From a virus, in IMG/VR virus record IMGVR_UViG_3300036760_000150, positions 82,674-146,673 of that record: a stretch of DNA of 64,000 nucleotides, one strand, 5' to 3'. The position numbers and the translations under genes were made by a program. Shown here piece by piece: positions 4,193 to 28,183 of the stretch. The notes below the pieces were generated by a model. That model saw only the letters and a list, made by a program, of their open reading frames with translations, was not told the DNA's origin and searched no databases. Each line of letters opens with the position of its first letter. The first letter of the stretch is position 1.

Positions 4193-4438
4193 ATGTACAG
4201 AGATGGTAGACAGTACTTCTTCAAGAACGTTCGGTTGATCAAGAGTAGGTGGATCAGCAGTTGCCTTGTCGTGGACGGTTACGAGTACAACCCGTTCTTG
4301 TTGCTTGAGATCAGTCCGAACCTGACTAAGTTCCCTAGAGGGAAGCGCCTGTGGGACAATGGCTACGTGTCGTTTGGCCTCTTTCGTCTCAAGCTCACGC
4401 TGTACGTGACCTTGACATTTCTAAGGTATCTGAGGTAG
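4193..4438 (+). CDS. Hypothetical protein, 81 aa
   Basis: This begins one base after the preceding stop codon, without a strong ribosome site, so it is probably translated by coupling. The sequence is basic and aromatic, with a hydrophobic C-terminal segment that may touch the membrane. No family is recognised. Confidence 0.6.
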   Translation: MYRDGRQYFFKNVRLIKSRWISSCLVVDGYEYNPFLLLEISPNLTKFPRGKRLWDNGYVSFGLFRLKLTLYVTLTFLRYLR

Positions 4439-4475
4439 TTTACAGGTACATGTCTGTTACCATGAAGGAGTACAC

Positions 4476-5607: not shown

Positions 5608-6492
5608 ATGTCTGAATATAGTCGTACAAAACCTATCCCAAATCGTAACTATCCATCAAAAAGTGTAGTTGGTGGTGTTGCTGGTTTTTCACGTGTAGAA
5701 GCCATGTTAACAGTAGATAGATTACGTCAAGAATTTTTGTTCGGTATACCATTAGTTTCTTTCATCACGAAGGAGACCCTTAAGGACGAAACTATCAGGA
5801 ACATCTTGAATCGTGCTGCTGCTCGCGTAGAGCTTGAGTGTAAGATCGACGTCACTCCTGTGCAAAGAGAGGGTCATTTTCCATTTGATAGAGTTAAATT
5901 CCTGCAAGGATTCAACCAGATCGACCTCAGCAACGTGCCACTCAGGAGTCTTGAGGAGTTCTCAATTCGAGCAGTCAACAGTGCGAACACGCCAGACAAC
6001 GTGAGTGGTGGAGGTCCTGACGGTAAAGGGACGGTTATATACACCCTGCCACTTGATTGGATTGACCTATCACAATCACATAAAGGTATCTTGCATGTGT
6101 TCCCATTGATCAGCACGTTCACCGGTACTGGTCAGGTTGCCGCTGCAGTCATGGGGCCGTCAGCATCTCTGTTCATGAACTTGATACATCAGACATATAT
6201 GCCTGCTTATTGGTATGTCCGTTGGACGTCAGGGTTTGACGAGAATGCCGTTCCTGCAACGCTGAATGAACTTATAGGTTGTTTTGCTGCCTTAGAGATC
6301 TTGAGTTTGATCGGTCCTCTTCGTCTATGGAACTCACAGAGTATCAACATCGACGGATCTGGACAATCTGTAGCAGGACCAGGTTCGCAACTGTTCAAAC
6401 AACGTATAGATGAGTTGACCAGTCGTATCGCTGAGCTTAAAGATCTGATCAAAGCACGCTTTAGCCAGAAGATCGTGATGGTTCATATCTAA
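5608..6492 (+). CDS. Putative neck or head-completion virion protein, 294 aa
   Basis: The protein has a long N-terminal segment, an alternating strand/helix core and a C-terminal coiled coil (residues about 255-285). It contains ELECKIDVTPVQREGHFPFD, a segment type I associate with virion connector proteins of large phages, though I cannot name a family. The first 50 codons are AT-rich and use different codons from the rest of the gene. This suggests that the 5' end was replaced together with the adjacent zinc-finger peptide. Confidence 0.5.
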   Translation: MSEYSRTKPIPNRNYPSKSVVGGVAGFSRVEAMLTVDRLRQEFLFGIPLVSFITKETLKDETIRNILNRAAARVELECKIDVTPVQREGHFPFDRVKFLQGFNQIDLSNVPLRSLEEFSIRAVNSANTPDNVSGGGPDGKGTVIYTLPLDWIDLSQSHKGILHVFPLISTFTGTGQVAAAVMGPSASLFMNLIHQTYMPAYWYVRWTSGFDENAVPATLNELIGCFAALEILSLIGPLRLWNSQSINIDGSGQSVAGPGSQLFKQRIDELTSRIAELKDLIKARFSQKIVMVHI

Positions 6493-6496
6493 AGTT

Positions 6497-9400
6497 ATGG
6501 AAGATAGTAATCGCAAAGACATCTTGACATCAAAAGATATCAACGAATCGTTGACGTCAGATGATACCAACTTAGAGAAGTCGGTGAATACCAAGCTTGT
6601 TCATCTAGCTACTATAGCCTCACTTCTCGGTGTCCCGTACTCTTCAAACATGCAGCCACCTAAAGCTGTGGCGGCAGCTCCAGCAGTTGTCCCCAGCGCC
6701 ACCCCTCATCCCGGTCTTGAGCCCATAGCGTACATGGAGTCCAGGAATGGTAGGAACCAGAGGCACAAGCTTGTGACATGGGGCCTCAACTCTGGAACCA
6801 AGGCTGTAGGCAAGTACGGCCTCATGCCACTGACTGTCCACGAGACTGCCAAGCATGACAGCACCATCGGCAGGATGTACCCTGAGTTTAAGACTCTAGA
6901 CCCTATCAAGGATCACGACAAGTACGAGAAGATCTTGCTTGCCAACCCGCAGGTGCAGGACCACATCGCCAACTCACACTGGGGTAGGTTGACTCGCACC
7001 TTCGGTAAAGACAAGAACAGGGCAGTCTACGCCTGGAAGTACGGCATCACAGGTGCCAAGACTGCATCACATAGCGATGTTTCGTCTGCTCCTTACGTGA
7101 GGGAGTACAACAAGCATCACAACATGCTGAATGTTCAGACCAAGAAGAGTCTTCGCAAGTCAGAGTTTCAGCTGCCGCAGCACTTCAGTTTCATATCAGC
7201 TCAACGCGGTGGTGATCACAACCATGACGTACATCAACGTCTGTACCAAGACCTGAGAGACTCAGGGTTCGACCCCGTTGAGGTGACGGGCCACTACGGC
7301 TACCAGGAGAGGTCTTTCCTAGTACCACACACAGGCTCTGCTGTCGATCGCAACAAGGTCGAAGATCTAGGCAGGAAGTACAATCAGGAGAGTGTGTTAC
7401 ACTCGTCCGACTTGAACAACGAGCTGGTCAACCTAGAAGATCCAACGAAGAGTATGAGGGGTTCTGGCATCAGCAACGATTACAGTGATGCCATGTACAC
7501 CGAGCTGCCTGGTGGTAGTAGATTTAAGTTGAACCTAAGGAAAACAGAGGTCCTTGAGAAGGCTGACGGACAACCTAACCCACAAGCTCGTCAGGTGGCA
7601 GAGGGTTACGCCAACTCAAAAGGTATCAAGCTGCGGCGTCTGACTCCGGTTAAGGTAAACCCACAGTTCGCGACGCATGTCGCTGGCGCCTACGAGAAGA
7701 TGCCTCACTCTCCTAGCAGTCCAGACACCAAACGTTCATACGACGCCTTGATCAGCGAGACGCTGGATCAGTTCCAACACATGAAGAACGCAGGCCTTAA
7801 GATATCAAAGATCAAGCCTGGCATGGAGAACCCCTACAAGTCTTCAAAAGACTTGTTCCATGACGTTCAGCACAACAACCACATGTGGTACTTTCCAACT
7901 GAGAGTGGGTTTGGATCATCTGAAACTCGTAGCGACCATCCTATGCTTGCTCCAACAGAAGAGATGCATGAGGGCAAGCCGATGCTTGCGAATGATGTGT
8001 TCAGGGTAGTTCATGATTACTTCGGACATGCAAAAGAAGGTCATGCCTTTGGCCCCAACGGGGAAGAGAACGCCTGGCAGACTCACGCTCAGATGTACTC
8101 GCCGGAGGCTAGACGGGCAATGACCGCCGAGACTCGTGGACAGAACAGTTGGGTTAACTTCGGGCCGCATGCTGCACACAACAGGTCAAACCCACACCAA
8201 ACTGTATACGCTGATCAGAAGGCTGGGCTGTTGCCTGACTGGGCTCATGCAGTAGATCCTACACAGGCGTTTAGTAAATCAGAAGATGATGATAAAGTTC
8301 TCTACCACTACTCACAGCATCCTGAGCCGTTGAAGATCATAGACCCTGTCTTCCACGGTACTGGTTACCCTGGTGCTGAAGGCAAACGTGACGACAGAGT
8401 GGCTCGTGCGTACTACTACGACACACCGACGGGTCATGAACCTGATGTTATCTCTGGTGCTACGCATATGTACACTGTGAAGCATCCAGGCAACATACTT
8501 GACGTCGCCAGCGAAGAGGCCGAACCGTTCAAAGAGAAGGCTCGCAACCAATATGGTATCATAGACTACTCAGACCTTGAGCGTCACATGAAAGATGCTG
8601 GGTACAACGGTTACAAGAACACAGCGAGCGCCATCCCTAACGCAGTCGCTTTGTTTCATCCTCAGCAGGTTGATGAGTCGAGAGATCTACGTAAGTCGGA
8701 AGAGCTTGAGAAAGCATCTCATAACGTGCGAGAACAAAAGGCTAAGGTATTCGGCACAAAAGCTAATCCTCCTGCTGGATCGCAGATGCGTGAGAAACAC
8801 ATCGAACACATCAACAACTTCGCCAAGAAATTCCTTAACCTAGAGATCCGTCCTTCAGGCGGTAAGATCAACGAGGCAACAGGACAGAGACGATCTGAGA
8901 GTCCTAAGATAGGTACCGACAAACCGGACTGGAGAAGTGGTCAACTTGAAGCTCAATGGAACCCGGAAGCTATCATGCATGAGCTTGCACACCTTATGTT
9001 GCTACCTTCAGGTGTTGGCTTAAAAGAAGGCCAAAGGCTGATGGACAAGCAGTACGGAGAGGTTCAAAGTAAATACGGATATATGCAGCAGAAAAGATCT
9101 CAGGGTGAGGTACAACCTATGGCTGCGGAGCAGATCATACGTAGACACCTAGGTCTTCCAGCCAGTCGAGTGAGCATTCCTGTTGAGTCGAAAGATGCCC
9201 CACCTAGAGTGTCAGTTGAAGCTCCAGATGTGGTTATAGGTACACGAGTTCCACAACCCACTAAGAGTGGTGCAGTTAAATGGGTCGATCTGATCAGACA
9301 GTCCCGCCTTTTGAACACAGAGAATCGAAAGAGGTTGGAAGATATCTTTAGTGGTAACATCAAATTTCATCCAGAGTTGGGTTGGATACCGAAGAAGACA

Positions 9401-11098
9401 TCTATATCCACACAGAAGCCCAAAGATGAACTGCCTACTGGATTGGTCAACGATGATGTCGAACCTTCTAAACTTGCGTCTAGCGAGAAAGTATATACAT
9501 CAGACGTCTTAGAAAAAGGCGTTAAACAAAGGCTGTTCTACTTTAGTCCTGCAGAGGTGCCAGAAGAACATAAGCAGAAGGTGGCACAGTGGACAGATCC
9601 ATTAGAGACAAATATATCTGGTGACAGAGAAGTGATACCTAGATTAGAAGGAAATGCTAGGATGAGGGCTCTGCATACTTTATCCAGCAAAACAAAGACT
9701 AGATGGAATCCTGATAAAAAAGAGAGAGAATTTTTATTACACCGAGGAGTGTCTGGAAGTGAACACAATCGTGTAATAAATAACGGACATGTAGAACATC
9801 CTGGTAAATCTTCGTGGTCTCCCAAACATACAACTGCCGTTAATTGGATGGATCAATATGGCGGTCTTGCTGATGAAGACCCCAGTGTACTATCTGCGTG
9901 GATACCAGAATCTAAGATACATCATGTTCCTATGCAGATTGGTGCCACAGAAAGAGTAGAGACCGTTAAGCCGGGTAATAAAAGATTTTCGCCAACAGGA
10001 AAGTTACAAGGTCCTATGGAGTGGCGCAACGAACACGAAGTGATCGTTGATCCTGGTAGTCATAAGGTGGCAACTGAAAAGGAAGTTAAGTCAACCGACA
10101 AGACCTCTGAGCCTACCGACATCAACGAGCGAATCAACCGTAAGATGACCAAGTCTGAGTATGATCCTGCCAAAGACGTCACAGCCTTCACATCTTTCTC
10201 TACAGAGCCTGGCGACATAGAGCTTGTGCGAGAGATCAACGAGATGATCGAGGCTGGTCACACCAGGCCGCTAGGTGAGAAAGGCTTGTTCACCGAGGAT
10301 AGCTTCGTCGTCGGAGAGAAACCAGATAACTCTTGGCTTATCAAGGTTGAGGTAGGAAACACGCCCGGCATTAAAGCTGTTCAGTACACCGGCCCTCAGT
10401 CTGTTAAAGAGGCCGCCTTCTACAAGGCCTCAGAACAAGTGTTCGGTCTGTCTCGCTTCGTGCCCAAGTCTGTGCTCGGTGAGGTGCAGACCAAGGACGT
10501 ACCCAAACTGGCGGTGGCCATCAAGATGCTGCCTCCTGAGTTCAAGAACGCCGCCGAGACAGAGGGTGACATCAAAGGTATGATGAAAGGTCTCCTTGAG
10601 AAGTACAAGGAGGCAGGTCTCTCTCACATGCTTGCGTTCATGCTCTACGTGTTGGGCGACCTCGATGCCCACGGCAACAACTTGATGACAGACGGGTACA
10701 ACGTCGTGTTGATAGATCATGGCAGCTCGTTTGCCGACCTGTCTTCTGAGGACAAGTCTGACAAGAAGCAGTTCGTACCTTACATCTTGAGGCATGAGGG
10801 TTTCAAAGGTAAGTTGTCTGACAACGACAAGCAGTCTCACATGCCGTTGATCGATAGCCCCGAGATAAGGGCTAACTTGAAAGAGTACATCATGTCTGTA
10901 GATCCTAAGAAGTTACATGACGTCGTAGTCAGCTACGGTCTAAATCCGGTACCATCAGTCACACGTCTTAAGGTCGCGCAGAAGATGCTTGAGCACTCAG
11001 ACCACCCTGACGTATTAGTGAACTACGTTTGGATAAAAGGTGCACCTGCGGACCTAGTTGAAGAGCAAGAAGGAGTCGCACATGAAGTTGGAGCCTGA
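6497..11098 (+). CDS. Giant polyvalent virion-associated effector protein, 1533 aa
   Basis: This is a chain of domains joined by Lys/Ser/Glu linkers. Residues about 78-210 resemble a lytic transglycosylase (AYMESRNG, KYGLMPLTVHETA). About 225-350 resemble DUF3293 (ISAQRGG, GHYGYQERSFLV, LGRKYNQES). About 365-590 form a phage domain with HDYFGHAKEGHAF. About 595-735 begin LYHYS and may be ADP-ribosyltransferase-like. H828-E-L-A-H832 is a zincin motif. About 1040-1190 show an ADP-ribosyltransferase R-S-E set (HRG, SWSP, EHEVIV). About 1220-1420 look like a kinase fold with DLDAHGNNL and IDHGSSFAD. This matches the published concept of polyvalent proteins delivered with phage or plasmid DNA. Delivery into the host is inferred from its place among virion genes. 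Confidence 0.75.
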   Translation: MEDSNRKDILTSKDINESLTSDDTNLEKSVNTKLVHLATIASLLGVPYSSNMQPPKAVAAAPAVVPSATPHPGLEPIAYMESRNGRNQRHKLVTWGLNSGTKAVGKYGLMPLTVHETAKHDSTIGRMYPEFKTLDPIKDHDKYEKILLANPQVQDHIANSHWGRLTRTFGKDKNRAVYAWKYGITGAKTASHSDVSSAPYVREYNKHHNMLNVQTKKSLRKSEFQLPQHFSFISAQRGGDHNHDVHQRLYQDLRDSGFDPVEVTGHYGYQERSFLVPHTGSAVDRNKVEDLGRKYNQESVLHSSDLNNELVNLEDPTKSMRGSGISNDYSDAMYTELPGGSRFKLNLRKTEVLEKADGQPNPQARQVAEGYANSKGIKLRRLTPVKVNPQFATHVAGAYEKMPHSPSSPDTKRSYDALISETLDQFQHMKNAGLKISKIKPGMENPYKSSKDLFHDVQHNNHMWYFPTESGFGSSETRSDHPMLAPTEEMHEGKPMLANDVFRVVHDYFGHAKEGHAFGPNGEENAWQTHAQMYSPEARRAMTAETRGQNSWVNFGPHAAHNRSNPHQTVYADQKAGLLPDWAHAVDPTQAFSKSEDDDKVLYHYSQHPEPLKIIDPVFHGTGYPGAEGKRDDRVARAYYYDTPTGHEPDVISGATHMYTVKHPGNILDVASEEAEPFKEKARNQYGIIDYSDLERHMKDAGYNGYKNTASAIPNAVALFHPQQVDESRDLRKSEELEKASHNVREQKAKVFGTKANPPAGSQMREKHIEHINNFAKKFLNLEIRPSGGKINEATGQRRSESPKIGTDKPDWRSGQLEAQWNPEAIMHELAHLMLLPSGVGLKEGQRLMDKQYGEVQSKYGYMQQKRSQGEVQPMAAEQIIRRHLGLPASRVSIPVESKDAPPRVSVEAPDVVIGTRVPQPTKSGAVKWVDLIRQSRLLNTENRKRLEDIFSGNIKFHPELGWIPKKTSISTQKPKDELPTGLVNDDVEPSKLASSEKVYTSDVLEKGVKQRLFYFSPAEVPEEHKQKVAQWTDPLETNISGDREVIPRLEGNARMRALHTLSSKTKTRWNPDKKEREFLLHRGVSGSEHNRVINNGHVEHPGKSSWSPKHTTAVNWMDQYGGLADEDPSVLSAWIPESKIHHVPMQIGATERVETVKPGNKRFSPTGKLQGPMEWRNEHEVIVDPGSHKVATEKEVKSTDKTSEPTDINERINRKMTKSEYDPAKDVTAFTSFSTEPGDIELVREINEMIEAGHTRPLGEKGLFTEDSFVVGEKPDNSWLIKVEVGNTPGIKAVQYTGPQSVKEAAFYKASEQVFGLSRFVPKSVLGEVQTKDVPKLAVAIKMLPPEFKNAAETEGDIKGMMKGLLEKYKEAGLSHMLAFMLYVLGDLDAHGNNLMTDGYNVVLIDHGSSFADLSSEDKSDKKQFVPYILRHEGFKGKLSDNDKQSHMPLIDSPEIRANLKEYIMSVDPKKLHDVVVSYGLNPVPSVTRLKVAQKMLEHSDHPDVLVNYVWIKGAPADLVEEQEGVAHEVGA

Positions 11099-11737: not shown

Positions 11738-12616
11738 ATGTCAGACTCATCAGATAGAAAACCAGAAGATAGGGTAGATATACCAATACAGTACCATGAT
11801 CCCTTTGAGGCCGTAAGAACTTCTCTTGACGCCGAAGGCTCTTTCATCTCAAACAACGGAGTGTTGTTCGCTCACTGGAAAGCCATGCCGTGTGTAATCG
11901 GTCAAAAAGATCTGGATGGCATAAGGAAAAGTTTTGACCATGCTTACGAGAATGCTGGATGTCCGATGAAGTGTGAGAACGGTTTTTCATACGAGTTCTC
12001 TGGCTACGTCTATGGAATCTTTGTTAGTAACTCGAAGAACTCGGCCAAGATGCCAGGTGGATTCGTGCCTAACGGCCAAGCATACGTCACCCTTAATAGG
12101 TACTACAAGAACACCGAGACATCAGCCTACTTCAGCGAGTACGACAAGCTCATACCTCACGAGTGTCCTGAAGACTTCAAGGCTGAGAATTTCCAGAAGT
12201 TCCAACATAACCCTAGCGGCGTAGACCGTCTTCAGTTCCCTGCTCACAAAGTTCAGTTCCTACACGACTCTGACGGCAAGAGGTACACCCAAGACGTCGA
12301 CTTCACCGTGGTAGACGGTCAGATAAAGTGGGGAGACAACCGTCCTGGATTCGACAACCAAGGTAAGCCTAAGATCTGCTCTGTCAGGTACACGTACCAA
12401 CCGTACTACTACGTGAAGTACGTGCTGCACGAGCAGAGGCTTAAGGTGCAGGTTGATCCTTACACCCAGGAAGGAAAGGTCAAGACAGGTCCTACACAGT
12501 GCCTAGTCGAGCAGGACTTCGTGTTCCTAGACAGCAGGTTCAAGGACAACCAGAAGGACAGCCAGCTCGAGTCGGGCAAAGGCGGCAACAGCGGGCCTGA
12601 GTACGGGCCTCGTTAA
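11738..12616 (+). CDS. Putative virion structural protein, 292 aa
   Basis: The sequence is aromatic and beta-rich (YRYTYQPYYYVKYV-like strands near residue 225), with an acidic low-complexity C-terminus. GTAGGTT precedes the start. It is the last gene of the transcription unit that begins at 5040, directly before a second late-type promoter. No family is recognised. Confidence 0.55.
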   Translation: MSDSSDRKPEDRVDIPIQYHDPFEAVRTSLDAEGSFISNNGVLFAHWKAMPCVIGQKDLDGIRKSFDHAYENAGCPMKCENGFSYEFSGYVYGIFVSNSKNSAKMPGGFVPNGQAYVTLNRYYKNTETSAYFSEYDKLIPHECPEDFKAENFQKFQHNPSGVDRLQFPAHKVQFLHDSDGKRYTQDVDFTVVDGQIKWGDNRPGFDNQGKPKICSVRYTYQPYYYVKYVLHEQRLKVQVDPYTQEGKVKTGPTQCLVEQDFVFLDSRFKDNQKDSQLESGKGGNSGPEYGPR

Positions 12617-14029: not shown

Positions 14030-14882
14030 CAAGGTAGTTGCCATAGTCAGCGTCTACCTGTCAAATCAGATAAAAGACGACGACGATCTACGTGACCAGA
14101 ACATGTATGTCAGTCGTCTTGAGAAGTTATGTCATGCCGTCGTGGTAAGCAAAGGTGGACAGGTCACACCTGTGCCTGCTGCCATGGGTATGGGCGACGC
14201 GTTCAAACTAGACATCCCCGTCGATGAGATCACATGCGTGAAACAGCTTGTCTGTCAGGCCAAGGAAGACGAGAGTCTACGTCTGTGTGTTGGTCTAGGA
14301 CATGACATAGTAGAGGCTAAGTACGCACTAGAGCATGCTATGCTTGAAGGACCATGCTCCATAGTCGTCTACCACCCTGACATGGAACCTAAAGAAGAGG
14401 TCAAGAAGTCAGAGCCTGAGCGTGAGAAGGCTCTACAGATACTGCAGACCATCAAGCAGAACATGCAGGTGTTTGAGAAGATGAAGCAAGAGAACCCTCA
14501 GATGTACTCGCATGTGTTAGAGACGCTTAAAGGTCTTGTGCAGGCTGTTGGCTCCAAGAAAGGTCACGCCGACAAGATCAACAACACTGGTGATAACATA
14601 CAAGATCTGATAGACAACGTTCAGTCAGGCTACGAAGACGACGATCAAGATGCAGCCCAAGAAGCTGTGGATGCCCTACCTAAGCCTGACGCTGTTCCTC
14701 AACAACCGCAACCTGCAGAAGAGCAGCAACCTCAAGTTGGCCTCAACAAACAGCTGCTTGCTGCTGCCCTTAGACAGGGTGGCAAGACAGATGATTCTCG
14801 TCCAGACTTCAGCGATAGTGAAGATCCTGAGTTCATGGAGGCGCTGTACGACGTCATAATGAGTGGAGACACAAGTGCCTAA
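14010..14882 (+). CDS. Putative virion-associated or scaffold-like protein, 290 aa
   Basis: The N-terminal half is alpha/beta, the middle (about 128-175) is a long helix beginning KKSEPEREKAL, and the C-terminal third is acidic and Gln/Pro-rich. This composition resembles phage scaffold or internal proteins. It overlaps both neighbours. No recognised family. Confidence 0.5.
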   Translation: MEESQTDKVVAIVSVYLSNQIKDDDDLRDQNMYVSRLEKLCHAVVVSKGGQVTPVPAAMGMGDAFKLDIPVDEITCVKQLVCQAKEDESLRLCVGLGHDIVEAKYALEHAMLEGPCSIVVYHPDMEPKEEVKKSEPEREKALQILQTIKQNMQVFEKMKQENPQMYSHVLETLKGLVQAVGSKKGHADKINNTGDNIQDLIDNVQSGYEDDDQDAAQEAVDALPKPDAVPQQPQPAEEQQPQVGLNKQLLAAALRQGGKTDDSRPDFSDSEDPEFMEALYDVIMSGDTSA

Positions 14883-17800
14883 GATCCAGAAGATGCCAGC
14901 TGCAGAGGCTGAGCAACATGTAAACAACCTGAGCTTGCCCGCCAGCAAGTTGGCCGAGATAGCTGGTCAGCACACAGACAACCCTGAGATCATGCAGGCT
15001 ATCGCTAAGCATCCTAATGCCGGACCTCAGGCCCTAGACATAGCCTACAGGTCAGATATGGCTGACAGTGCCCTTGAGCACCCTAACGTGTCGCAGAAGA
15101 CTGTCGAGCATGCGTTCAACAGGTTCGTTGAACCAAACGAGCCTAAAGATCTTGAGTACGAACATAAAGACATAGCACTTCATCCCAAGTTGCCTCAAGA
15201 AAAGAAAGACACTTTGGTCATGAAGATCATGAACTCTAAAGACAAAGGTACTTGGAGTGACATGATAGCTAACAATTACTTTGACAAAGGTCATGCTTCA
15301 GAGGCTATGGTACAGCATGCACTTCAACACCCGGATGTTGACTACACAGCTCATGCCTTACAGTCTCCCACGGTGTCAGATGAGCATGTTAAGACTGCAG
15401 CGGCCAGGAAAGACTTTGACTACGAGCAAGCCAAAAAGGCGATTGAGAACAAAGCCCTGTCACCTGAGTCTATAGCTTTCTTGTACAACAAGTTCAGGGG
15501 CAAAGAGGGTGAGAACACCTACTGGCGAGATAAGATCGAAGGTAACCTGACAGAGAACCCCAACACCCCACCTGAGATAATCAGCAAGCTTGCGAGTAAG
15601 CGTAGTCCTCACCGTCGCGATGCCATGCAACACCCAGCTTTTCCCGAGAAAGAGTTGCACAACATGGTCAAAGAAGGTGACGAGGATGCCATAGATGCAG
15701 CGTTGCCTCGCAGCGACACACCTGAGGAAGTACTTCGTCACATACACGCACACCTGCCAGATGACGCAAACTACAAGTGGGGTAAAGGAAGATCTTTGGT
15801 CAGGCATCCTAACTACCCAGAGGATCTTCAACTTAAGAGTGCTAAAGGTAGCACAGATGAGGCCAGAGCCTTACTTAAGAGGGAGCAGCTGTCTAAGCCC
15901 GTCTTAGATCAACTTGTGAGCCACAAGAACACCAACCTGGCTGTCGATGCTTTGAAGCATAAGGCAATCACTCCAGAGACAGTGTTGCTGGCGTACAACA
16001 GGAAAGCTAAAGATGTCGCTGGTGCTGCTGGCCTACATCGTCTGTTGCCCAAAGAGTTGAAGATCAACCGAGCTGTCGAGAACGAAGACACAGCTGTAAA
16101 ATTAGCCGACATATCAAACGACAAAGATGTCCTTAGGTCTATCGCTGAGAGGTGGGGTAACAAAGATTCAGTTCGTGGAAGACTGTTACGTAACCATAAC
16201 TTAGACGGTGACACCCTGCACAATCTGGTGAGTCACCAGATCCAGGCCACAGGTAGTCGAGCGACTTATTTTCCCAACAACTTAGATGAACATCCCAACA
16301 TGAAGCCTGAGACTCGCATGATGATGATCAAACATCCAAGTGCTTCATACAAGGCTTTCTCTCACATCAACTTGACCCCAGATGAGGCTAGAGAAGGCCT
16401 TCGTCACTGGGCAACTGAGGATCGCGACCTAGCTGGCGACTATGCTACTGGACTTCTCACTCATCCTAACACAGATCCTGAACTTGCCAAAGAGATCGTC
16501 TCTGGTACATACGGGAAGCTTAACAACCGACAGCTGCGTTCAGATGAGCTTGAGGAGTTCGTCAAGTCGCATCCTTTGGTGTACACCAAAGGTGTTGTCA
16601 AGGCTGCCCTTGAGACTCCTCACGAGTTGACTGACAAGAACGCCGTTGGACAGATCGCCAAGGGTGCTGATAGCTTGTCTGCCAAAGACATAGCTGAGTA
16701 TGTAGATGGCGTCAAGAAGATGAAGTTCGGCGGTGATCGTGACAAAGAAGATTTCTACCATTCAGTAGCTGTGGACATGGTTAGAAATCCTAATGCAGAT
16801 CCTCATTTTTTAGTTGGACTTGTAGATAGGTCACTCAATAACAGTCAACAGACACAGCATGATATCAAACTTGCCAATGCTGCCATACACAACCCAAGCT
16901 ACCCTAAAAAACATCTAGAAGAGATCATAAGACACCCCAAGTTCCCTGAAGACAACGGTAACTTACGTGGTGACCTAACAGGTTTCATAAAAGATAAGAT
17001 CTACGAACCTGAGATGAAAGAACTCAGAGACAAAGCGTTGGTCGAGTCTAATCATCCTCAGTTCGTTACAGATCTACTAACTACTAGGTTTAAAGACCAA
17101 GAGGACCCCAAGCTAGTCGAGAAGGCTCTCTCTAACCCACACCCTGAAGTTGTAAAAGACGTATTGGGCTACCTGTCTAACAAGTCAACGCAGATGTCAG
17201 GCGCTAATGACTCACGCAGCAGGCAGATAAGAGACTACGTAGATCAACTTGCAGACCACGCAGATCCGTCAGTGCGAGCTGCTGCGTTTGAGATGATGTC
17301 TCCAGAGGCACAAGCTAAGATGACCCAAGGTCAAGACTTGATGTCAAACCCAGAACTCATACAAGGCTTATCAAGAGAGAACGCCGAGAAGTTGAAGATA
17401 GAGTCACATCATAGTTTGGACGCTATCCAGCAGCTCCTAAAACATAAGTACGCTCATTGGCAGCATTTTGAGCAGGCAGTTAACCACTCCCAAGAAGGAG
17501 CTGAGCTAGCACATAAGATATTATCTGCTAAGATCGAAGGTGAGGATCGTCCATCAAAGAAAGACGTAGAAGGTCTAGGTTACATACAAGAGAAACTACT
17601 TGATAAGTACTCAGACTCCTCTGCCTCAAGGTTCATAGCTAGAACCACACCCAACACACTTGTGCTGGACAAGATAGTCAACGACCCTCGTCTGTTCAAC
17701 AAGTTTGGTGGTAACATAACAGAAAACGACCATGCCTTGTCTCGTCACCTTGACAGCTTCACTAAGTTGAAAGGTGAGAGTCACGCCAGCCTGATGAGCG

Positions 17801-20679
17801 ACCTGGCCGCTCATCCTAAGGCTAGCACGAAGCTGCTGGAGCACATCGCTGCAAACTACCCAGAGGAGATGGTCAAGGTTGCAGGACATCCAAAGGCTTA
17901 CTCAAGCAAGGTGCTTCGTACCATACTTACATCAGGCAACAAAGAGGCTATAAAACAGGTAGCCAACAACGACAAGGTACCTGACGAGGTCAGAGAGCAG
18001 CTAAAACGTGACCCTGAGATCATGTTGAATTTAGATGGTAAGTATGTAACTCCCGACGATCTTACCAGAGCTGTCCCTGAGGCTGACGCGCATAGGCTAG
18101 AACAGATCGTAGACCATCGATCAGCAAACGATGAAGTGTATAATAAAGTCCTTGATGCGGTTGATAGTGGTAGGTTCTCAGACGAAGAGAAACAGATCAC
18201 ACTGAACAATGTGGCGGATAAGCGAAACTTGAGTAAGACAACCATAGATAGGATCATAAGTCATACTAACGCCACTTCACGCAGCATATCTCATGTGTTG
18301 TCTAAAAACAATGTGGATAACGAGCAGTTCAACAAGATCGTGGATAGGTTCGACTCTGATCAACCAGTTATGGCTTACCTTGCCGATAACTTGTCATCAT
18401 GGCGCGACGGAGATGTTGGCCAAGCAGCAGATAGACTTATTGACCACATCGATGTTGGAGCAGAACCAAATCTGGTCTCTCAACTTATAAGTAACCAGCA
18501 TGGTAAACTGCACCCTCAGTTCTTCGATAAAACTCTTAGCAAACTTGAGGCCGCACGAGGACCTCAGTACCAGTACACAGACAAGCCTAAGAGTATGTTA
18601 GAGTCTGACGGTGAGCTACTGAGTCATATCGCAGAGTTCGCACCTACGTCGTTGCATGGTAAGTTGGTGCAGTACCCAGAGTTACAGCCGATGTTGTTGA
18701 GGTCTGGCAATATTAACAAGACCTCGTATGACAAGATGGTAGAAGATCTTCCAAGATTGCATGAGATAGCTGCTAAGTCTGACAGCGATTACTTGAAGAA
18801 ACGTTTTGTCGAAGAACATATTAAACGTCTGGTAGATAGCCCACACTCTGATGAGTCTGCCATCAACTTGATCTACAAGACTATGGTTGACAAACAGACG
18901 CCTGAGGAAAACGGTGTGATGGTATCAGCCATACTATCATCTCCTAAAGCACCATCTAAGCTGATAGATGACATGTTTAAGGCTGGCAACATCAGGGCTC
19001 TGCGTAGTCCTAAGTTATCTAGGCATATAGTTGATGAACAACTCTCTAACCTGACAATGACCAACTCTGAAGATCTGGCTCAGAACCCCAACGTGTCTAT
19101 GGGTGATCTTAACAAAGCCGTAAAAGATAAACGAAATTCTCCAGTTGCTTACAGAGATGCATACGGCACGATGTTGTCTCGACCCTCCTTGAGGTCAGAA
19201 GACCTTGAGCAATTATATGATATGTTCTCAAAGAACAAAGGTGCACTTCCCACCGAAGATCAAAATTACCTCACCAAGAGGATCATCCAACGTCCTGAGG
19301 TGACTGAGTCTATATTCAACGATGCCTATGGTAAAGGCCTCATAACTAATGATCAAGCGTACTCCAACCCTAAATGGGGTGGTCGTCTGTTCAGGGCTAT
19401 GGATCACAGAGTTCCAAGTGGTGTTCCCAACTTGACGACTAAAACTCCTGTGACTAACCAGCAGGTGTTGAAGCCAAGAATGGAGAAGCTGCAGTCAGTC
19501 GCCTCCATGGTACCACCTGAAGGGTACATAGACTGGGCCACCTTCAAGAAAGATAACCCCTCTATGGCTGGTGACCCTCTTGTGCAACGCATGTTCACGT
19601 CTGCCCCTAAGCAGCGACTTACGCAGGAGCATGCGCAGAAGTACCTGTCTGAGGTTCCTGGCAAAGAGTTTCACATGTCTTACACAAAATGGACAGGCAT
19701 GCAGCGTCATAGGTCTGTGCCACAGTTGGTTGTCCAGGTGAACAACGGCTCTTTCATGGACGACGTGCTTGCCAAAGACCCTGAAGCTTACAGGCTGTAC
19801 TCCTTCATGCAGCAGGCGTCTAAGAACTCCGGTCATCCTACCACTCCTCAGTCTATAGGTTGGTCTCGCGTCGACACTGGTGATAAGGATCACTGGTTCA
19901 TCGATGAGGTACAATCAGATTTTGGTGCTGGCGTTGCTAGGGAGCTGAGCAAGATACAGGAGAACCCAGAGCACGCAACTGCGTTTGCTAGCAAAGTTGG
20001 TATACCTGTCGAGAAGGCTCAGAAGGTTTTGCATAGGTTGGTCGACGTCATGCAAGGGTGGGATCGTGCGTTGGTGGAGCACGTGATCGATCTCGCTAAG
20101 CGTAACGGTGTCAAGCAGGTTTCTATGCACTCTGGTAAGTCTAAGACTGTCACCAACAAAGGTGGAGAGTCCGAGATCACGAACAAGTACGACAAGCTGT
20201 ACAACAAGATGCCTCAGGAGATGGGATTCCACGGTGACTTCTACAAGAACTTACCTGTGGCTACCGATAAATCATTGATGGAACAACCTGTATGGACGTT
20301 GAACATCCCTCAGGAGATTAAGAAATCTGAGTACGACGAGAGGTCTGTGTTGGTCAAAGCTGGCCAAGTCATATCGAAGCTCAAGAATGAGGAAGTTCAG
20401 AACTACTCACCGGAGGCGTTCCAAGCTGCTCTTGAGGCTGTCCAGGCTCTGGTGCAGGTCTTGAAAGAAAGTGGCTACACATCTCCAGGGCATGCCGACG
20501 TAAACAACCATCCGTCGGTTCCAGGAGAGACTTCGCCTAGACCTAAGGAAGATAAGCCGCTGACACATCAGCATAAGATGTACTCACCAGGTGCCGTTCG
20601 CATGTACGACAGCCACGAAGAGCGTCAGAAAACTCCAGAAGGCAAGTGGGTCAACGTCAGCAGGCAGGGTGATACATGA
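14875..20679 (+). CDS. Giant alpha-solenoid repeat protein with polyvalent C-terminal domain, about 1934 aa
   Basis: Most of the protein (to about residue 1500) is a series of 20-30 residue units with the pattern hP-hP...h, for example KHPNAGPQALDIA and EHPNVSQKTVEHA. These resemble leucine-rich-repeat-variant or HEAT-like solenoids. The C-terminal region (about 1560-1800) contains HWFIDEVQSDFG and, further on, NKYDKLYNKMP, a domain arrangement seen in phage polyvalent proteins. I prefer the GTG at 14875 because GGAG lies seven bases upstream; a GTG at 14863 also fits. The last 130 residues contain KKSEYDE and a helical bundle. A role as an ejected or internal virion protein is inferred from position and size. 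Confidence 0.65.
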   Translation: MPKIQKMPAAEAEQHVNNLSLPASKLAEIAGQHTDNPEIMQAIAKHPNAGPQALDIAYRSDMADSALEHPNVSQKTVEHAFNRFVEPNEPKDLEYEHKDIALHPKLPQEKKDTLVMKIMNSKDKGTWSDMIANNYFDKGHASEAMVQHALQHPDVDYTAHALQSPTVSDEHVKTAAARKDFDYEQAKKAIENKALSPESIAFLYNKFRGKEGENTYWRDKIEGNLTENPNTPPEIISKLASKRSPHRRDAMQHPAFPEKELHNMVKEGDEDAIDAALPRSDTPEEVLRHIHAHLPDDANYKWGKGRSLVRHPNYPEDLQLKSAKGSTDEARALLKREQLSKPVLDQLVSHKNTNLAVDALKHKAITPETVLLAYNRKAKDVAGAAGLHRLLPKELKINRAVENEDTAVKLADISNDKDVLRSIAERWGNKDSVRGRLLRNHNLDGDTLHNLVSHQIQATGSRATYFPNNLDEHPNMKPETRMMMIKHPSASYKAFSHINLTPDEAREGLRHWATEDRDLAGDYATGLLTHPNTDPELAKEIVSGTYGKLNNRQLRSDELEEFVKSHPLVYTKGVVKAALETPHELTDKNAVGQIAKGADSLSAKDIAEYVDGVKKMKFGGDRDKEDFYHSVAVDMVRNPNADPHFLVGLVDRSLNNSQQTQHDIKLANAAIHNPSYPKKHLEEIIRHPKFPEDNGNLRGDLTGFIKDKIYEPEMKELRDKALVESNHPQFVTDLLTTRFKDQEDPKLVEKALSNPHPEVVKDVLGYLSNKSTQMSGANDSRSRQIRDYVDQLADHADPSVRAAAFEMMSPEAQAKMTQGQDLMSNPELIQGLSRENAEKLKIESHHSLDAIQQLLKHKYAHWQHFEQAVNHSQEGAELAHKILSAKIEGEDRPSKKDVEGLGYIQEKLLDKYSDSSASRFIARTTPNTLVLDKIVNDPRLFNKFGGNITENDHALSRHLDSFTKLKGESHASLMSDLAAHPKASTKLLEHIAANYPEEMVKVAGHPKAYSSKVLRTILTSGNKEAIKQVANNDKVPDEVREQLKRDPEIMLNLDGKYVTPDDLTRAVPEADAHRLEQIVDHRSANDEVYNKVLDAVDSGRFSDEEKQITLNNVADKRNLSKTTIDRIISHTNATSRSISHVLSKNNVDNEQFNKIVDRFDSDQPVMAYLADNLSSWRDGDVGQAADRLIDHIDVGAEPNLVSQLISNQHGKLHPQFFDKTLSKLEAARGPQYQYTDKPKSMLESDGELLSHIAEFAPTSLHGKLVQYPELQPMLLRSGNINKTSYDKMVEDLPRLHEIAAKSDSDYLKKRFVEEHIKRLVDSPHSDESAINLIYKTMVDKQTPEENGVMVSAILSSPKAPSKLIDDMFKAGNIRALRSPKLSRHIVDEQLSNLTMTNSEDLAQNPNVSMGDLNKAVKDKRNSPVAYRDAYGTMLSRPSLRSEDLEQLYDMFSKNKGALPTEDQNYLTKRIIQRPEVTESIFNDAYGKGLITNDQAYSNPKWGGRLFRAMDHRVPSGVPNLTTKTPVTNQQVLKPRMEKLQSVASMVPPEGYIDWATFKKDNPSMAGDPLVQRMFTSAPKQRLTQEHAQKYLSEVPGKEFHMSYTKWTGMQRHRSVPQLVVQVNNGSFMDDVLAKDPEAYRLYSFMQQASKNSGHPTTPQSIGWSRVDTGDKDHWFIDEVQSDFGAGVARELSKIQENPEHATAFASKVGIPVEKAQKVLHRLVDVMQGWDRALVEHVIDLAKRNGVKQVSMHSGKSKTVTNKGGESEITNKYDKLYNKMPQEMGFHGDFYKNLPVATDKSLMEQPVWTLNIPQEIKKSEYDERSVLVKAGQVISKLKNEEVQNYSPEAFQAALEAVQALVQVLKESGYTSPGHADVNNHPSVPGETSPRPKEDKPLTHQHKMYSPGAVRMYDSHEERQKTPEGKWVNVSRQGDT

Positions 20680-22151
20680 GTATCAGGGTTTATATAGCTG
20701 AGGAGTCTTTGAAAGAGCTGGGCAAAGACCTTGAGAATCTTAGTGCTGCTACGCAAGAAAAAGTAAAGGCATCTCTGCAGATCTTGGCTGCGCAAGTTCA
20801 TGGATATGTGATACAAGAAGTTAACGCTACTATGAAAAGTACGAGAAGCGTGTACATCAAGAGCATAGTTGGACCAACTGAAGTTGGTGAGAATATGTGG
20901 ATGGTAGGGCTCAAGAAAGATGCCGAGTGGATCGAACAGGGGTATCCTGCATATGATATGATCCCCAAACTCACAAGTGGTCCAAAATCTAAAGTCTCTA
21001 AAGATGGATGTGTTTTAAATCCTCGTAATAAAATTTTAACCATTCGTGGATGGGTAAAAATAAAAGATATTAAAGTGGGAGATTTTGTTTTAACACATTC
21101 TGGTAAATTTCGCGAAGTTAAAGAAGTTAAAATTCAAAAAGCTGGTATAAATACTGAATATATAACAATATATCCTAAAACAATCGATAGCTCCCGTCCT
21201 GTAACTAAAAAATATAATGATTTAACTTGTCCATCTTTATCCTTAACTTTAGATCATTTAGTATTAACGCCATTGGGGTGGATTCCAGCTGAGAAACTTA
21301 AAAAAGGTGATTTAATTGCTACTCCAGGTGATTTAAAGAAATTATGTAAAAAATGTGGTTCTCCAGTACCAATTAATGTATTAGATTACTCGTTCTGTCT
21401 AAATAATAGATGCAATAGATCGTACTTAGCACAAGAACGTGATAAATATAAAGAAAAGGCATGCGTTCGTGATGGCATAAAATTACTTAGGATATCTAGT
21501 CATAAAATTTATAAAATTGGCTCAAATATATCAAGACATCTTTCTTTATGGATAAAAAACCACTCTGGCGAATTAGGTGTTGCTTGGGTAAAAATTTCAA
21601 AAATTAAAAAAGGAAAAGTAAATAGACCTGCTCATGTATTTGCTAAAAAATATGATTTATGTTTGGATGCAGAAGAGCATTCTTTTTGTTGTGAAACTGT
21701 ATATATACATAATTCTAGATACACAGTGATTCCATTCAAACATAACAAGCGACCTTCTGATATGTCTCGTGCCGAGATGAACCTGGCGAACTACGCCAAA
21801 GCTGAGCTGAAAGCTCGTGGTCTAGACAAGGTGATAAAAGATAGTCAAGGGCGGGCTCTCTCTGGTAAAGTTGCAACAGTTAACCTCACCGGACCTGGTG
21901 CACCGATGTCTAGACACAACACACCATTGCTTGCCGGTTTGACTGTGTACCAAACTATCATGAAGAACCAACAGACAGGCAAAGAGACTGTTCGTAGAGA
22001 TGTGATGACGTTCAGAACCGTCAGCGAGAAACAGAAAGGTACTGGCAAGTGGTACAACAAAGGTATGGCTGGTTTTAGGATCTTTGACAAAGTTCAAGGG
22101 CAGGTAGATGCCGCGTGGGGCAAGATGGTCGCGGAGCTTCTAAATGAGTAG
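20676..22151 (+). CDS. HK97-gp10-like head-tail connector or neck protein interrupted by an intein
   Basis: Without the insert the product is 256 residues. The N-terminal helices, the FKHNKRPSDMSRAE region and the C-terminal helix resemble the HK97 gp10 / minor tail connector family. That family occupies this place upstream of tail completion and sheath genes. The in-frame insert at residues 112-346 is an intein lying immediately before the conserved SRYTVIPF strand, so splicing should be needed for function. The gene overlaps both neighbours by a few bases (ATGA). Confidence 0.75.
   Translation: MSIRVYIAEESLKELGKDLENLSAATQEKVKASLQILAAQVHGYVIQEVNATMKSTRSVYIKSIVGPTEVGENMWMVGLKKDAEWIEQGYPAYDMIPKLTSGPKSKVSKDGCVLNPRNKILTIRGWVKIKDIKVGDFVLTHSGKFREVKEVKIQKAGINTEYITIYPKTIDSSRPVTKKYNDLTCPSLSLTLDHLVLTPLGWIPAEKLKKGDLIATPGDLKKLCKKCGSPVPINVLDYSFCLNNRCNRSYLAQERDKYKEKACVRDGIKLLRISSHKIYKIGSNISRHLSLWIKNHSGELGVAWVKISKIKKGKVNRPAHVFAKKYDLCLDAEEHSFCCETVYIHNSRYTVIPFKHNKRPSDMSRAEMNLANYAKAELKARGLDKVIKDSQGRALSGKVATVNLTGPGAPMSRHNTPLLAGLTVYQTIMKNQQTGKETVRRDVMTFRTVSEKQKGTGKWYNKGMAGFRIFDKVQGQVDAAWGKMVAELLNE
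21009..21713 (+). mobile_element. In-frame intein, 235 aa, with zinc-ribbon insert
   Basis: It starts with cysteine (block A CVLNPRNKILTIRGWVKI), has a block B-like TLDHLVLTPLGW with the TxxH histidine, and ends DAEEHSFCCETVYIHN followed by Ser +1. That gives the penultimate His, the terminal Asn and a Ser nucleophile. The DNA is much more AT-rich than the host gene. No LAGLIDADG endonuclease is present. The middle instead holds CKKCGS and CLNNRC pairs, probably a zinc ribbon. Confidence 0.92.
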
Positions 22152-22356: not shown

Positions 22357-23349
22357 ATGGCTGGTTTCTTCAACGCAGACCTGATCATCTTCACATCTCT
22401 CAAAGAGGGTATAAGACGCATCAAGGATAGTCTGTACCTTGTGGACAGCATCAACGGTCTACTTGTGGAGGACCAACTCCTTGCTGACTTGTATGGTAAG
22501 CAAGAGGTGGACCGTTTCCGTAAGTTCGTCGACAAGACGTACATAAACGTCGTGCTAGACCACAGACCTCCTGAGCAGGCTAAGTACCCGTGCATCTCTG
22601 TTGGCATAGGCCAAGGAGCCGAGGAACCTCAGCAGAAGCTTGCTTTGGGCGACGGACACGACACCATAACAGTGGACCCCAACAGCCTGCAAGGCCTGAA
22701 GGTTACTCCTAAGACCTTGGTAGGTCCTGTTACCCCAGAGAGCTACGACAAGATGACTGGCACCTTGGTTCTACCTGACAGTGTGTCCTTGAAAGACGTG
22801 TACCAGGGGATGGTGGTGCTAGATGAGGTCAACAACACCTCCTACGACATAGAGATGGTCATAGACAACCAGACCCTCATGATAACCCCAGACTCAACCC
22901 CCAACCTGAACGGCATGACGATACGTCCTAGATCGAAGCTTGTAGGTAACACGAGAAAATCAGTGTACTGTCGCGAGAACTACGATCTCACTGTAGTGGC
23001 CACAGACCCCACCGAGCTTCTCTATGTGTTCAACCTTACCATGCTGATACTGCTCAGGTTCAAGAAGGAACTGTTCGAGCTTAGAGGGTTCGACGTCCAG
23101 ACGTTCAACTACGGGCCTATCATGAATGGTGACGACGGCAGCCCAAACAAGATCTGGTTTAGGACGATCAGCCTGTCGGGTCGTGTTGAGTACCAGTGGA
23201 GCAATGAAATCTCTGAACAAATCGAAGGACTTAAGGTTGATCTTCGTGTGACAAACACAGATGGTGATGATTTGAAGTCACCAGACGGTGTGCTAGCTCA
23301 AGTTCAAGCGCAAGGTTGGTCCGAACCAGGCGACCCAGATGCTGAGTAA
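22357..23349 (+). CDS. Putative tail completion/terminator or neck protein, 330 aa
   Basis: It has an alpha/beta N-terminal domain, a central beta insert (about 110-190), and a C-terminal segment with DPTELLYVFNLTMLILLRFK and then SLSGRVEYQW. I associate this combination with tail terminator-like proteins between connector and sheath genes. The position between the gp10-like connector and the sheath agrees. The assignment is by synteny and general features, not a firm family match. Confidence 0.55.
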   Translation: MAGFFNADLIIFTSLKEGIRRIKDSLYLVDSINGLLVEDQLLADLYGKQEVDRFRKFVDKTYINVVLDHRPPEQAKYPCISVGIGQGAEEPQQKLALGDGHDTITVDPNSLQGLKVTPKTLVGPVTPESYDKMTGTLVLPDSVSLKDVYQGMVVLDEVNNTSYDIEMVIDNQTLMITPDSTPNLNGMTIRPRSKLVGNTRKSVYCRENYDLTVVATDPTELLYVFNLTMLILLRFKKELFELRGFDVQTFNYGPIMNGDDGSPNKIWFRTISLSGRVEYQWSNEISEQIEGLKVDLRVTNTDGDDLKSPDGVLAQVQAQGWSEPGDPDAE

Positions 23350-25351: not shown

Positions 25352-28183
25352 ATGGCGCTACAACAAGTCAATTCTGATGGCTCGGTACTTATTGTCCCGT
25401 CGTCATCTGTAAACATAACGGTTGCCACACAACCCACTGGTATCGCCACAAGTGGCATCTTAGCATTACTTGGTGAGGCGGACGAAGGTCCTGCTTGGAA
25501 CGACTCAGGAGAGAGTCTGTCAAGCCTCAGCTTTAGTCCTGTTGACAGCGATCGTGTCGCTGCCAAGTTCGGCTCAGGCCGTCTCGTCGACGCATTCAGG
25601 AACATCGGTCAACCCTCAGCTTCTCCTAAGGTCGGTGGTGGTCCTAACAGGATCATCCTCATCAAGACGAACTCGTCCACAAAAGCCTCCAGCACAACTG
25701 CTGATAGTTCTGGTACGTTCAGCGCCAAGCGTGCTGGACAGCCTGGGAACCTCATAAAATACAGCATCTCAGACAACGTCTCTGAGTCTGCTCCTACCAC
25801 AGACTCTTTCTCCTATGTGCCCTCGTCATCTTCGTCAGCTCTGGCTGCCAGGGTGAACGGTGGGTCTAGGCAGACCTTGTCTATCTCTGCCAACACTACT
25901 CCTACAGCGTTGGCCGCCTCTATAACGGCGCTCTCTAACTTGAACGCCGTAGGCGGCATCAACCGGAGTGTTCTCTCTGGTTTGTCTGGTCAGAACATCA
26001 GCCTGACAGTTGTGTCAGGTCAAGTCGTCGATATAGCGCTTGCTCTAGGTCAAGTTTTCGCAACCGCACCTCAAGTAGGTGACACTGCTCGCATACCTGC
26101 TGGATCAGTTATAGAAGGTGGTTCTGCTGAGAACGTAGGTTGGTACCTCGTGACGGCAGTCGTCAACACGACCTCGACGGCCAAGATCACTGCGACCAAG
26201 ATCACCTCTGGTGCTCCTGCCAACGTGGCAGCGACCCCTATCTCCGGCACCCCAGACAACGACCTTATCGACTACAGCTACATGAGAGTCGACGACATGA
26301 GTGGTGAGAACCGTAACATACTCACCGGTCTGGTTGGTCAGACAGCAACTGTGACTGTGGCAAGCTCTAGCTTGACGTTCACCCTGGCCTCTGGTCAGGT
26401 GTTCCCTTCGTCTCCTAAGATCGGTGACATAGTCTACATCCCATCAGGCTCTGCGTACCAAGGTGCAGGTAACGCCAACGTAGGTTGGTACTCTGTCACC
26501 TCGGTCAGCAACACGACCTCGTCAGCATTCCTGACCGCATCTCGGTTGTCAAATGGCAACCCTGTCGCTGTCGGCTCCACAGCCATCGTAGCTACGTCTG
26601 ATGTCCAAGACTACAGACGTGACATCGACGGTGTAGGTAAATCCCTTGAGATCCGTGACAACAGTGGCACCGTGAGTATCACGACCATATTAAAGCAGCT
26701 GGGTGTCAACTCATCTGTCACGTGGATCAGCTCCTCGTCATCGCCTCAACTCCTCGTCTCAGGCGCTGAGATGCAGAAGTCCGTCAGGTTGGTGAGAAGC
26801 TCCACGAACAGCTCTGAGACGTTCAACATCGGTGGTAACATATCGCTTCAGGTGAGCTACCAACCTAGCTCTACGTCTGGTACAGCTACCTTGACCATCT
26901 TGACGTCGTCTGGCACACGTAGACTTCAGACCTCTGTGTCTGGTGGTCCTGGTGTCAACCTAGACATCGACCTCAGCACGGTGCCTACGATCAACGACCT
27001 AGTCAACATAATCAACTCCAACACTGGCTACAGTGCCCAGGCGTTCACCGCCACTGAAGGACAGAGAAGCACCATGGTCCTTGACCAAGTGACAGCTATG
27101 GGTATCTGCACAGAGCTTGGAACCAAACCTGGCCGCATCAAGTCTGACCTCTACGACTTGACGCTGGGTCAGTCAGGGTTCAGGAACTCTGTACTCATCA
27201 CGTACTCGTCAGCGTCGCTCGCTGGCCTGCCCGAGTCTCAGTCTGACACATTCCTCTCTGGTGGAGCTAAAGGTGCATCTACCGGTCTTCAGTTCTCAAA
27301 CGCCATCGATGCGTTGAAATCTGTCAGATGCAACTTCGTCATCCCGTTGGTCAGTCAAGACGCGTCTGACGATGCTGCTGATGGTCTCACAGATGGATCT
27401 TCCACCTACCAGGTGGACGCTGTCAACCAACTCGTGAAGTCTCACGTGTTGGCTATGTCGACGCCTAAGATCAAACGTCACCGCATCGCTGTGGTGTCCA
27501 AGAAGGATACCTTCGACAACGCGAAGCAATCTGCTCAGAACATGTCTAGCTTCAGGGTCGCCCACACGTTCGAGGATGTGCTAGGGGTAGGGTCTGACGG
27601 TAACACCAAGCAGTTTCAGCCTTGGTTAGCAGCAGCTACAGCTGCCTCGTTCCAAGCTGCCGCGTTCTCTCGCACTATCTTCAACAAGGCCATCAACATC
27701 AGCGGTGCCCTTCAGGACGCTGGCGATTGGCACGACGAGAACGTCACAGACGTAGAGAATGCCCTACTCGCAGGTTTGCTGCCAATCGTTCGACAGTCTA
27801 ACGGTCAGTTGGTGTTCGCAAGTGACCAGATGACGTACGGTGTCGACAACAACTTCGTCTACAACAGCATGCAGGCTGTGTACACCTCAGACCTCATGGC
27901 TCTGAGTCTCGCTGACAGTCTCCAGACAGCTTTCGTCGGTGAGGTCACAGCTGATGTCACACCTGCTGCAGTCATCGCCTTCATCAAGTCTAAGATGATC
28001 GAGTTTTTGAACCTCAAGTTCACGGCCTCGACAGACAAGTTCCCCGCTGGATGGAAAGATATAACCGTCAACATCAGTGTACCTTCAATGTTCGTTAAAG
28101 TAGTTGCCATTCTATCAAGTGGGATTTACTTCATTCCTATCGATCTTGTCATTGAAGGTGTAAGTTCCAGTGCGGCTGCTTAA
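25352..28183 (+). CDS. Contractile tail sheath protein, 943 aa
   Basis: The C-terminal third carries the sheath signature: RHRIAVVSKKDTFDNAKQ, then IFNKAINISGALQDAGDW, and a long terminal domain with DKFPAGWKDITVNISVPSM. The N-terminal residues (SVNITVATQPTGIATSG) also fit. At 943 residues it is longer than typical sheaths of about 400-700. The excess includes two tandem copies of a roughly 110-residue beta domain (about residues 206-430). A tube protein follows immediately, which confirms the assignment. AGGAGAAG precedes the ATG. Confidence 0.93.
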   Translation: MALQQVNSDGSVLIVPSSSVNITVATQPTGIATSGILALLGEADEGPAWNDSGESLSSLSFSPVDSDRVAAKFGSGRLVDAFRNIGQPSASPKVGGGPNRIILIKTNSSTKASSTTADSSGTFSAKRAGQPGNLIKYSISDNVSESAPTTDSFSYVPSSSSSALAARVNGGSRQTLSISANTTPTALAASITALSNLNAVGGINRSVLSGLSGQNISLTVVSGQVVDIALALGQVFATAPQVGDTARIPAGSVIEGGSAENVGWYLVTAVVNTTSTAKITATKITSGAPANVAATPISGTPDNDLIDYSYMRVDDMSGENRNILTGLVGQTATVTVASSSLTFTLASGQVFPSSPKIGDIVYIPSGSAYQGAGNANVGWYSVTSVSNTTSSAFLTASRLSNGNPVAVGSTAIVATSDVQDYRRDIDGVGKSLEIRDNSGTVSITTILKQLGVNSSVTWISSSSSPQLLVSGAEMQKSVRLVRSSTNSSETFNIGGNISLQVSYQPSSTSGTATLTILTSSGTRRLQTSVSGGPGVNLDIDLSTVPTINDLVNIINSNTGYSAQAFTATEGQRSTMVLDQVTAMGICTELGTKPGRIKSDLYDLTLGQSGFRNSVLITYSSASLAGLPESQSDTFLSGGAKGASTGLQFSNAIDALKSVRCNFVIPLVSQDASDDAADGLTDGSSTYQVDAVNQLVKSHVLAMSTPKIKRHRIAVVSKKDTFDNAKQSAQNMSSFRVAHTFEDVLGVGSDGNTKQFQPWLAAATAASFQAAAFSRTIFNKAINISGALQDAGDWHDENVTDVENALLAGLLPIVRQSNGQLVFASDQMTYGVDNNFVYNSMQAVYTSDLMALSLADSLQTAFVGEVTADVTPAAVIAFIKSKMIEFLNLKFTASTDKFPAGWKDITVNISVPSMFVKVVAILSSGIYFIPIDLVIEGVSSSAAA

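Follow-up and report, generated by a model that had tools for sequence, protein, structure and literature searches.

A probable mini-intein with remnants of an EDxHD/DUF559-type homing endonuclease in a phage neck-module gene

Phage portal and terminase proteins have already been reported to carry inteins (PMC5050341). MuF-type minor capsid proteins that act as intein hosts are visible in GenBank records. An earlier note on the DNA analyzed here considered a connector or minor tail protein to be a less common host for an intein; inteins in phage structural genes (portal, MuF-type) are known, and the claim of rarity is retained only for the host family described below, in which no other intein was seen. 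No report of an intein in this neck family, and no description of an intein group that combines a zinc ribbon with an EDxHD nuclease, was found in the openly accessible literature covered. A paper outside this set (Dassa et al. 2009) reportedly deals with split inteins and a new family of homing endonucleases.

The stretch analyzed (the window) is 64,000 nucleotides long and covers positions 82,674 to 146,673 of IMG/VR record IMGVR_UViG_3300036760_000150, which consists of one contig, 146,673 bp long, from a metagenome. The features of the interrupted gene are as follows.

20676–22151, + strand: precursor open reading frame (host protein plus putative intein), 491 aa
20676–21008, + strand: N-extein, 111 codons, ending ...KVSKDG, from alignment to insert-free homologues
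21009–21713, + strand: putative intein, 235 codons from Cys1 to Asn235, codons 112–346 of the host reading frame
21009–21326, + strand: N-terminal splicing half (blocks A and B), with T80-L-D-H83 at 21246–21257
21345–21413, + strand: zinc-ribbon-like C113-x2-C116-x13-C130-x4-C135, retained from the endonuclease insertion
21429–21623, + strand: EDxHD/DUF559-like homing endonuclease tail (QERDKYKEKACVRDGIKLLRI...WIKNHSGEL...), catalytic core absent
21648–21713, + strand: C-terminal splicing half (blocks F and G, ...YDLCLDAEEHSFCCETVYIHN)
21714–22151, + strand: C-extein, beginning with Ser+1 (SRYTVIPFKHNK...), from alignment to insert-free homologues

The insert opens with Cys1 (codon 21009), contains T80-L-D-H83 in block B and H224-S225-F226 in block F, and closes with His234-Asn235 (end at 21713). 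Ser+1 is located at 21714, and the strand SRYTVIPF follows directly after the insert. The class 1 residue set (C1, T80-x-x-H83, H234-N235, and Ser+1) is complete in the insert and invariant across an alignment (A3) of 16 sequences consisting of the intein of the window and its relatives. The GC content of the insert is 29.2% with a GC3 of 13.6%, compared with 42.9%/41.4% and 47.9%/50.0% (GC/GC3) for the flanking gene pieces. The remainder of the window averages 48% against 29% for the insert (z = –6.4), and the lowest value among 1238 same-length segments elsewhere in the 64 kb is 40.1%. The Cys1, TxxH, HN, and Ser+1 residues, all in frame, and the AT-rich composition had been claimed in the earlier note; the residues were found where it had placed them, and the composition lies 6.4 standard deviations below the window mean.

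The motifs, the predicted fold, the profile match, and the continuity of insert-free homologues at exactly this point support the reading of the insert as an intein. From sequence and structural modeling, it is very probably a class-1-type cis-splicing intein without its former homing endonuclease core (probability of about 0.93).

After removal of the insert in silico, the 256-aa host protein matches WNM70341 of Myxococcus phage Mx1 (E = 1e-28) and SPO1 gp7.1 (E = 8e-7). The alignment is unbroken across the junction, K-x-G/x-[RKW]-[YF]-x-x-I-P-F (the slash marks the splice point), which is the best conserved stretch of the host family. A first scan of viral contigs returned 80 host relatives, none with an insert at the junction, and about 70 distant loci are continuous at K-x-G/S-x-Y..IPF. 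A second scan, made with the closest host sequences, found 61 such loci among viral contigs and another 2 among MAG contigs; the site is intein-free in 63 of 63 of these closer loci, and the largest insertion found there is 13 aa. A few loci are common to both scans. The sequence KDGSRY or KDGSKY, as in the joined product, appears in several close relatives. The proposal that SRYTVIPF joins to the upstream half is borne out, since the homologues are continuous exactly at the claimed junction. The earlier note had suggested alignment with intein-free homologues as a check and had named a homologue bearing the insert within its own fold as the refuting case; the insert is missing from the closer and the distant loci and is absent from every homologue examined. 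No intein at the same site was found among these host homologues, scans of the viral contigs with the single precursor or intein sequence gave no match, and no second allele of the intein was found in the viral-contig scans. The 146.7-kb record contains neither a second copy nor another intein of the same group.

In the proposed pathway, the reading frame, which is observed to be open, would be translated as one 491-aa precursor. An N-to-S acyl shift at Cys1 would be followed by transfer to Ser+1, and cyclization of Asn235, aided by His234, would then be followed by an O-to-N shift. From the motifs, the fold, and the homologues, the expected product is a neck-assembly protein of 256 aa in which the exteins are joined as KDG-SRYTVIPF.

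When viral contigs were scanned with a small alignment of inteins, 80 loci were obtained, many of which are inteins of 323–434 aa with one layout. Between blocks A and B and blocks F and G, these inteins carry a zinc ribbon (C-x2-C...C-x3/4-C) and a nuclease with the motifs I-E-x-D-G-x-Y-W-H, G-W-x-V-L-R-F, and N-H-x-G. The nuclease scores above the Pfam cut-off for DUF559 in most members, and Vsr and MTES_1575 also match. DUF559 is a member of the EDxHD homing endonucleases (PMC9403480). DUF2726, the first hint of a nuclease (E = 0.0018), was set aside as a cousin, DUF559/Vsr being the better name. The hosts of nine relatives that were scanned are mostly Phage_Mu_F or minor-capsid proteins.

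An HMM was built from 18 full-length group members from viral contigs with the sequence of the window left out. It matches the intein of the window with E = 7e-42 in two pieces, positions 1–125 and 281–369 of 369. Model positions 126–280 (about 155), among them the IECDGxYWH catalytic core, are missing, and both HMM and alignment find the core motif I-E-x-D-G-x-x-W-H absent. The zinc ribbon and the nuclease tail are both retained. The tail alone scores 29.9 bits, whereas none of 2000 shuffles exceeded 8.7 bits. By itself the ribbon piece gives a weak score (8.1 bits), but all four of its cysteines are conserved in 16 of 16 A3 sequences. The splicing blocks are kept and the nuclease is partly missing, as in a mini-intein. 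Because the match skips the catalytic core, the intein of the window is best described as a mini-intein with nuclease remnants which, judged from its sequence, should splice but not home alone.

Parallel partial or complete nuclease deletions are found in L102, L111, L119, and L125, the last of which keeps the ribbon and the tail. The nearest full-length member, L106, also has Ser+1 and is 46% identical over the splicing blocks; its placement has a local support of 0.93 in a small tree with few columns and a long branch. No intermediate stage of nuclease loss was seen in the lineage of the window's intein. The GC gap between intein and host (–0.19) exceeds that of all 23 relatives compared (range 0 to –0.17), which suggests that the insert came from an AT-rich source or drifted for a long time with an AT bias.

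The intein would have descended from, or share an ancestor with, the phage inteins that carry the ribbon and an EDxHD/DUF559 nuclease, mostly in MuF-type head proteins. The alignment shows the later loss of about 155 model positions, including the IECDGxYWH core. An intein of this kind, unable to home alone, would persist by splicing at a conserved position that tolerates only precise loss. A speculative and rather doubtful extension is that these inteins form a largely undescribed lineage, built around the ribbon and the EDxHD/DUF559 nuclease, which moves between virion-assembly proteins (MuF-type head proteins and now a neck-assembly protein) and repeatedly sheds the nuclease but keeps the ribbon, perhaps because the ribbon has come to function in splicing or in the control of splicing.

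Other arrangements were observed within the group. A single reading frame for a MuF-type-looking head protein (L106:2500–6267) carries two inteins, both of which belong to the ribbon/DUF559 group. In L112 (2278–5346), one reading frame carries two intein types, one small and ribbon-bearing and the other with LAGLIDADG. At 81566–81763 of the same record as the window (G000:C1; L181), about 0.9 kb before its start, a 105-aa reading frame contains an EDxHD-like core (DIYIPDHNLGIEYCGLYWHNE). It matches the intein-nuclease model with E = 7.5e-6, looks truncated, and is overlapped in another frame by a reading frame similar to Mom (DNA modification).

Conditional splicing, for example through a redox or metal response of the four-cysteine ribbon that would time neck assembly, would add to the preferred explanation and is considered unlikely. 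Conditional splicing is known in other inteins. The ribbon has been kept despite the loss of the core, its four cysteines do not vary, and the insert contains numerous extra cysteines, some of them near the C-terminal splice site. However, the ribbon belongs to the ancestral nuclease insertion and may be a mere leftover. No host relative carries an intein, and thus neck assembly needs no such control; the suggestion that splicing could act as a control point found no supporting evidence.

An AlphaFold model of the intein was built with 15 relatives. The splicing blocks are mostly predicted with a pLDDT of 88–96 and the middle region with low confidence; the N-terminal splicing half is mostly above 90, except for the loop at 59–72. 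In a model of the whole precursor, for which the alignment was without intein sequences, the host parts are confident (pLDDT mostly 83–96) and the intein is poorly placed with low pLDDT. This precursor model gave no match to PDB structures. The high confidence in the splicing blocks argues against a decayed intein that splices poorly, in which case the host protein would come from a rare product or be dispensable and the phage gene would be broken. The degraded nuclease part and a cysteine-rich block F (C218, C227, and C228, versus the usual V-E-E-D-E-S-Y of the relatives) are consistent with decay, but every splicing residue is retained, the frame is open, both exteins are intact and conserved, and the joined product equals the relatives exactly at the junction. 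Decay is therefore regarded as quite improbable.

The insert is predicted from the model to have a HINT fold. Foldseek returned 48 matches in the PDB at E ≤ 0.001, and these are HINT structures of the intein, hedgehog, or BIL type. The top-ranking ones are gp41-1, Ssp DnaB, and Mtu RecA; the best E is 2.2e-7, and TM scores reach 0.81 by target. The Pfam profile Intein_splicing (PF14890) matches the insert with E = 5e-7 and 30.1 bits, compared with a gathering cut-off of 35.8. Some full-length relatives, L099 and L116 among them, also fall under this cut-off, and thus it does not discriminate within the intein group. Hint_2 scores 28.3 bits against a cut-off of 28.4, and PT-HINT matches weakly as well. 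These weak matches, and the presence of BIL and hedgehog structures among the fold matches, could indicate a natural domain of the host family or a HINT domain of the BIL or hedgehog type that only cleaves. The homologues are insert-free, however, and both forms of this reading were rejected as highly improbable; ligation is expected because the insert interrupts a conserved stretch and ends in HN/S. A group I or group II RNA intron, for which an AT-rich insert in a phage gene is a common setting, was dismissed as having a negligible likelihood given that the insert matches no Rfam intron family even at E ≤ 1, has a predicted HINT fold, and keeps all 235 codons open in frame, with 6–35 stops in each of the other five frames. 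An open frame of this length (705 nt) appeared in 0 of 20,000 sequences simulated with a first-order Markov model of equal composition.

The joined host protein matches phrog_16819, the SPO1 gp7.1 family, with E = 1.7e-24 over residues 27–246. The following genes of the window are located around it.

5608–6492, + strand: adaptor-like neck protein (phrog_772, as is SPO1 gp6.3, which matches the phage 812 adaptor)
11738–12616, + strand: stopper-like neck protein (phrog_1004, as is SPO1 gp6.4, which matches 8q01_S)
22357–23349, + strand: tail-terminator-like protein (phrog_1000, as is SPO1 gp7.2, which matches 8q01_M)
25352–28183, + strand: tail sheath

The order in the window is adaptor, stopper, intein host, terminator, and sheath, and the order in SPO1 is 6.3, 6.4, 7.1, 7.2, 8.1, and sheath. 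SPO1 gp6.3 matches the phage 812 adaptor with E = 3.5e-33, and gp7.2 matches the tail terminator with E = 5.5e-4. For gp6.4 the match is to chain S of the phage 812 neck structure (E = 8.8e-22), an entry labeled 'capsid protein'; the order and the numbers of the genes lead to the reading of gp6.4 and chain S as the stopper. The Kayvirus gene in the same slot encodes gp98, which shares the motif SKDGGWYLTVP and is a member of linked families. The neck channel proteins of phage 812 are gp91, gp96, gp97, and gp99, and gp98 is absent from the text on this neck (PMC12886913).

The host family gave no match to PDB sequences, and the host fold gave none to solved structures. HK97-gp10_like matches only with E = 0.067 in 2 of 21 family members. 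The earlier name for the host, a head-tail connector protein, is correct for the region, since stopper-like and tail-terminator-like genes of the neck module are located on either side of the gene. The term connector is a guess from position, because gp98 is not among the named phage 812 neck proteins and the host matches no neck protein of known role. The host family is a conserved, uncharacterized neck gene of SPO1-like and Mx1-like phages, and the protein may be an assembly or tail-completion factor.

Two large proteins are also encoded in the neck module. A 1938-aa protein with many repeats and a Pfam LRV_2 match (14863–20679) lies directly upstream of the host gene. A 1533-aa protein (6497–11098), located between the adaptor-like and stopper-like genes, has sub-threshold matches to S-adenosylmethionine lyase and DUF3293; it is possibly multi-domain and may travel in the virion. 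In a close relative (L187, a contig of 164,882 bp), the host gene has no intein, and free-standing genes of endonuclease type lie around it: a reading frame with an I-HmuI-type NUMOD just upstream (2096–2974, + strand), a GIY-YIG reading frame just downstream (3769–4788, – strand), and a treble-clef and Vsr-like reading frame about 2.4 kb further (6218–6769, – strand). The host gene may be a homing hotspot.

The neck-assembly protein would be a new kind of host on the short list of intein-carrying virion proteins. The insert is now linked to phage inteins with an EDxHD/DUF559 nuclease and a zinc ribbon, a group that may deserve its own description. Several of its members are at different stages of nuclease loss, and these offer a way to test the homing-cycle model (PMC3229294) in phages.

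The closest systems are the full-length phage inteins with the ribbon and the EDxHD/DUF559 nuclease (L099, L101, L103, L105, L106, L116, and others). They share with the intein of the window blocks A, B, F, and G, the place of the nuclease insertion, the four ribbon cysteines, and the nuclease tail (R-D-x3-K/R...GWxVLRF...NHxG). They differ in their length of 323–434 aa with the IECDGxYWH core, versus 235 aa without it, in their host protein, and in having mostly Cys+1 rather than Ser+1, with L106 also having Ser. The members in which the nuclease is partly or wholly deleted (L125, L102, L111, and L119) belong to the same group, and L125 resembles the intein of the window in keeping ribbon and tail. 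All four have Cys+1, unlike that intein; the hosts of L102 and L119 are MuF-type or minor-capsid proteins by Pfam, and those of L125 and L111 were assigned by junction sequence only.

The inteins of the MuF-like minor capsid proteins of Gordonia phages Barsten and Nordenberg are 29–33% identical in the splicing blocks and likewise reside in a virion structural protein. Their host family is different, their junction is HN/C, and their middle region is unrelated by BLAST. The Mtu RecA mini-intein and the gp41-1 intein (PDB 2imz and 6qaz) have a HINT fold like that predicted for the insert, but they are only 14–16% identical in structural alignment, reside in other hosts, and have no ribbon. The mycobacteriophage portal and terminase inteins also occur in phage packaging and virion genes; the nucleases shown for two of the terminase inteins are LAGLIDADG enzymes, unlike those of the group found here (PMC5050341). 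The host homologues SPO1 gp7.1, Kayvirus gp98, and Mx1 WNM70341 contain no intein. Like the host described here, they are encoded immediately ahead of the tail terminator gene, a slot that in SPO1 and Kayvirus also follows the stopper gene directly.
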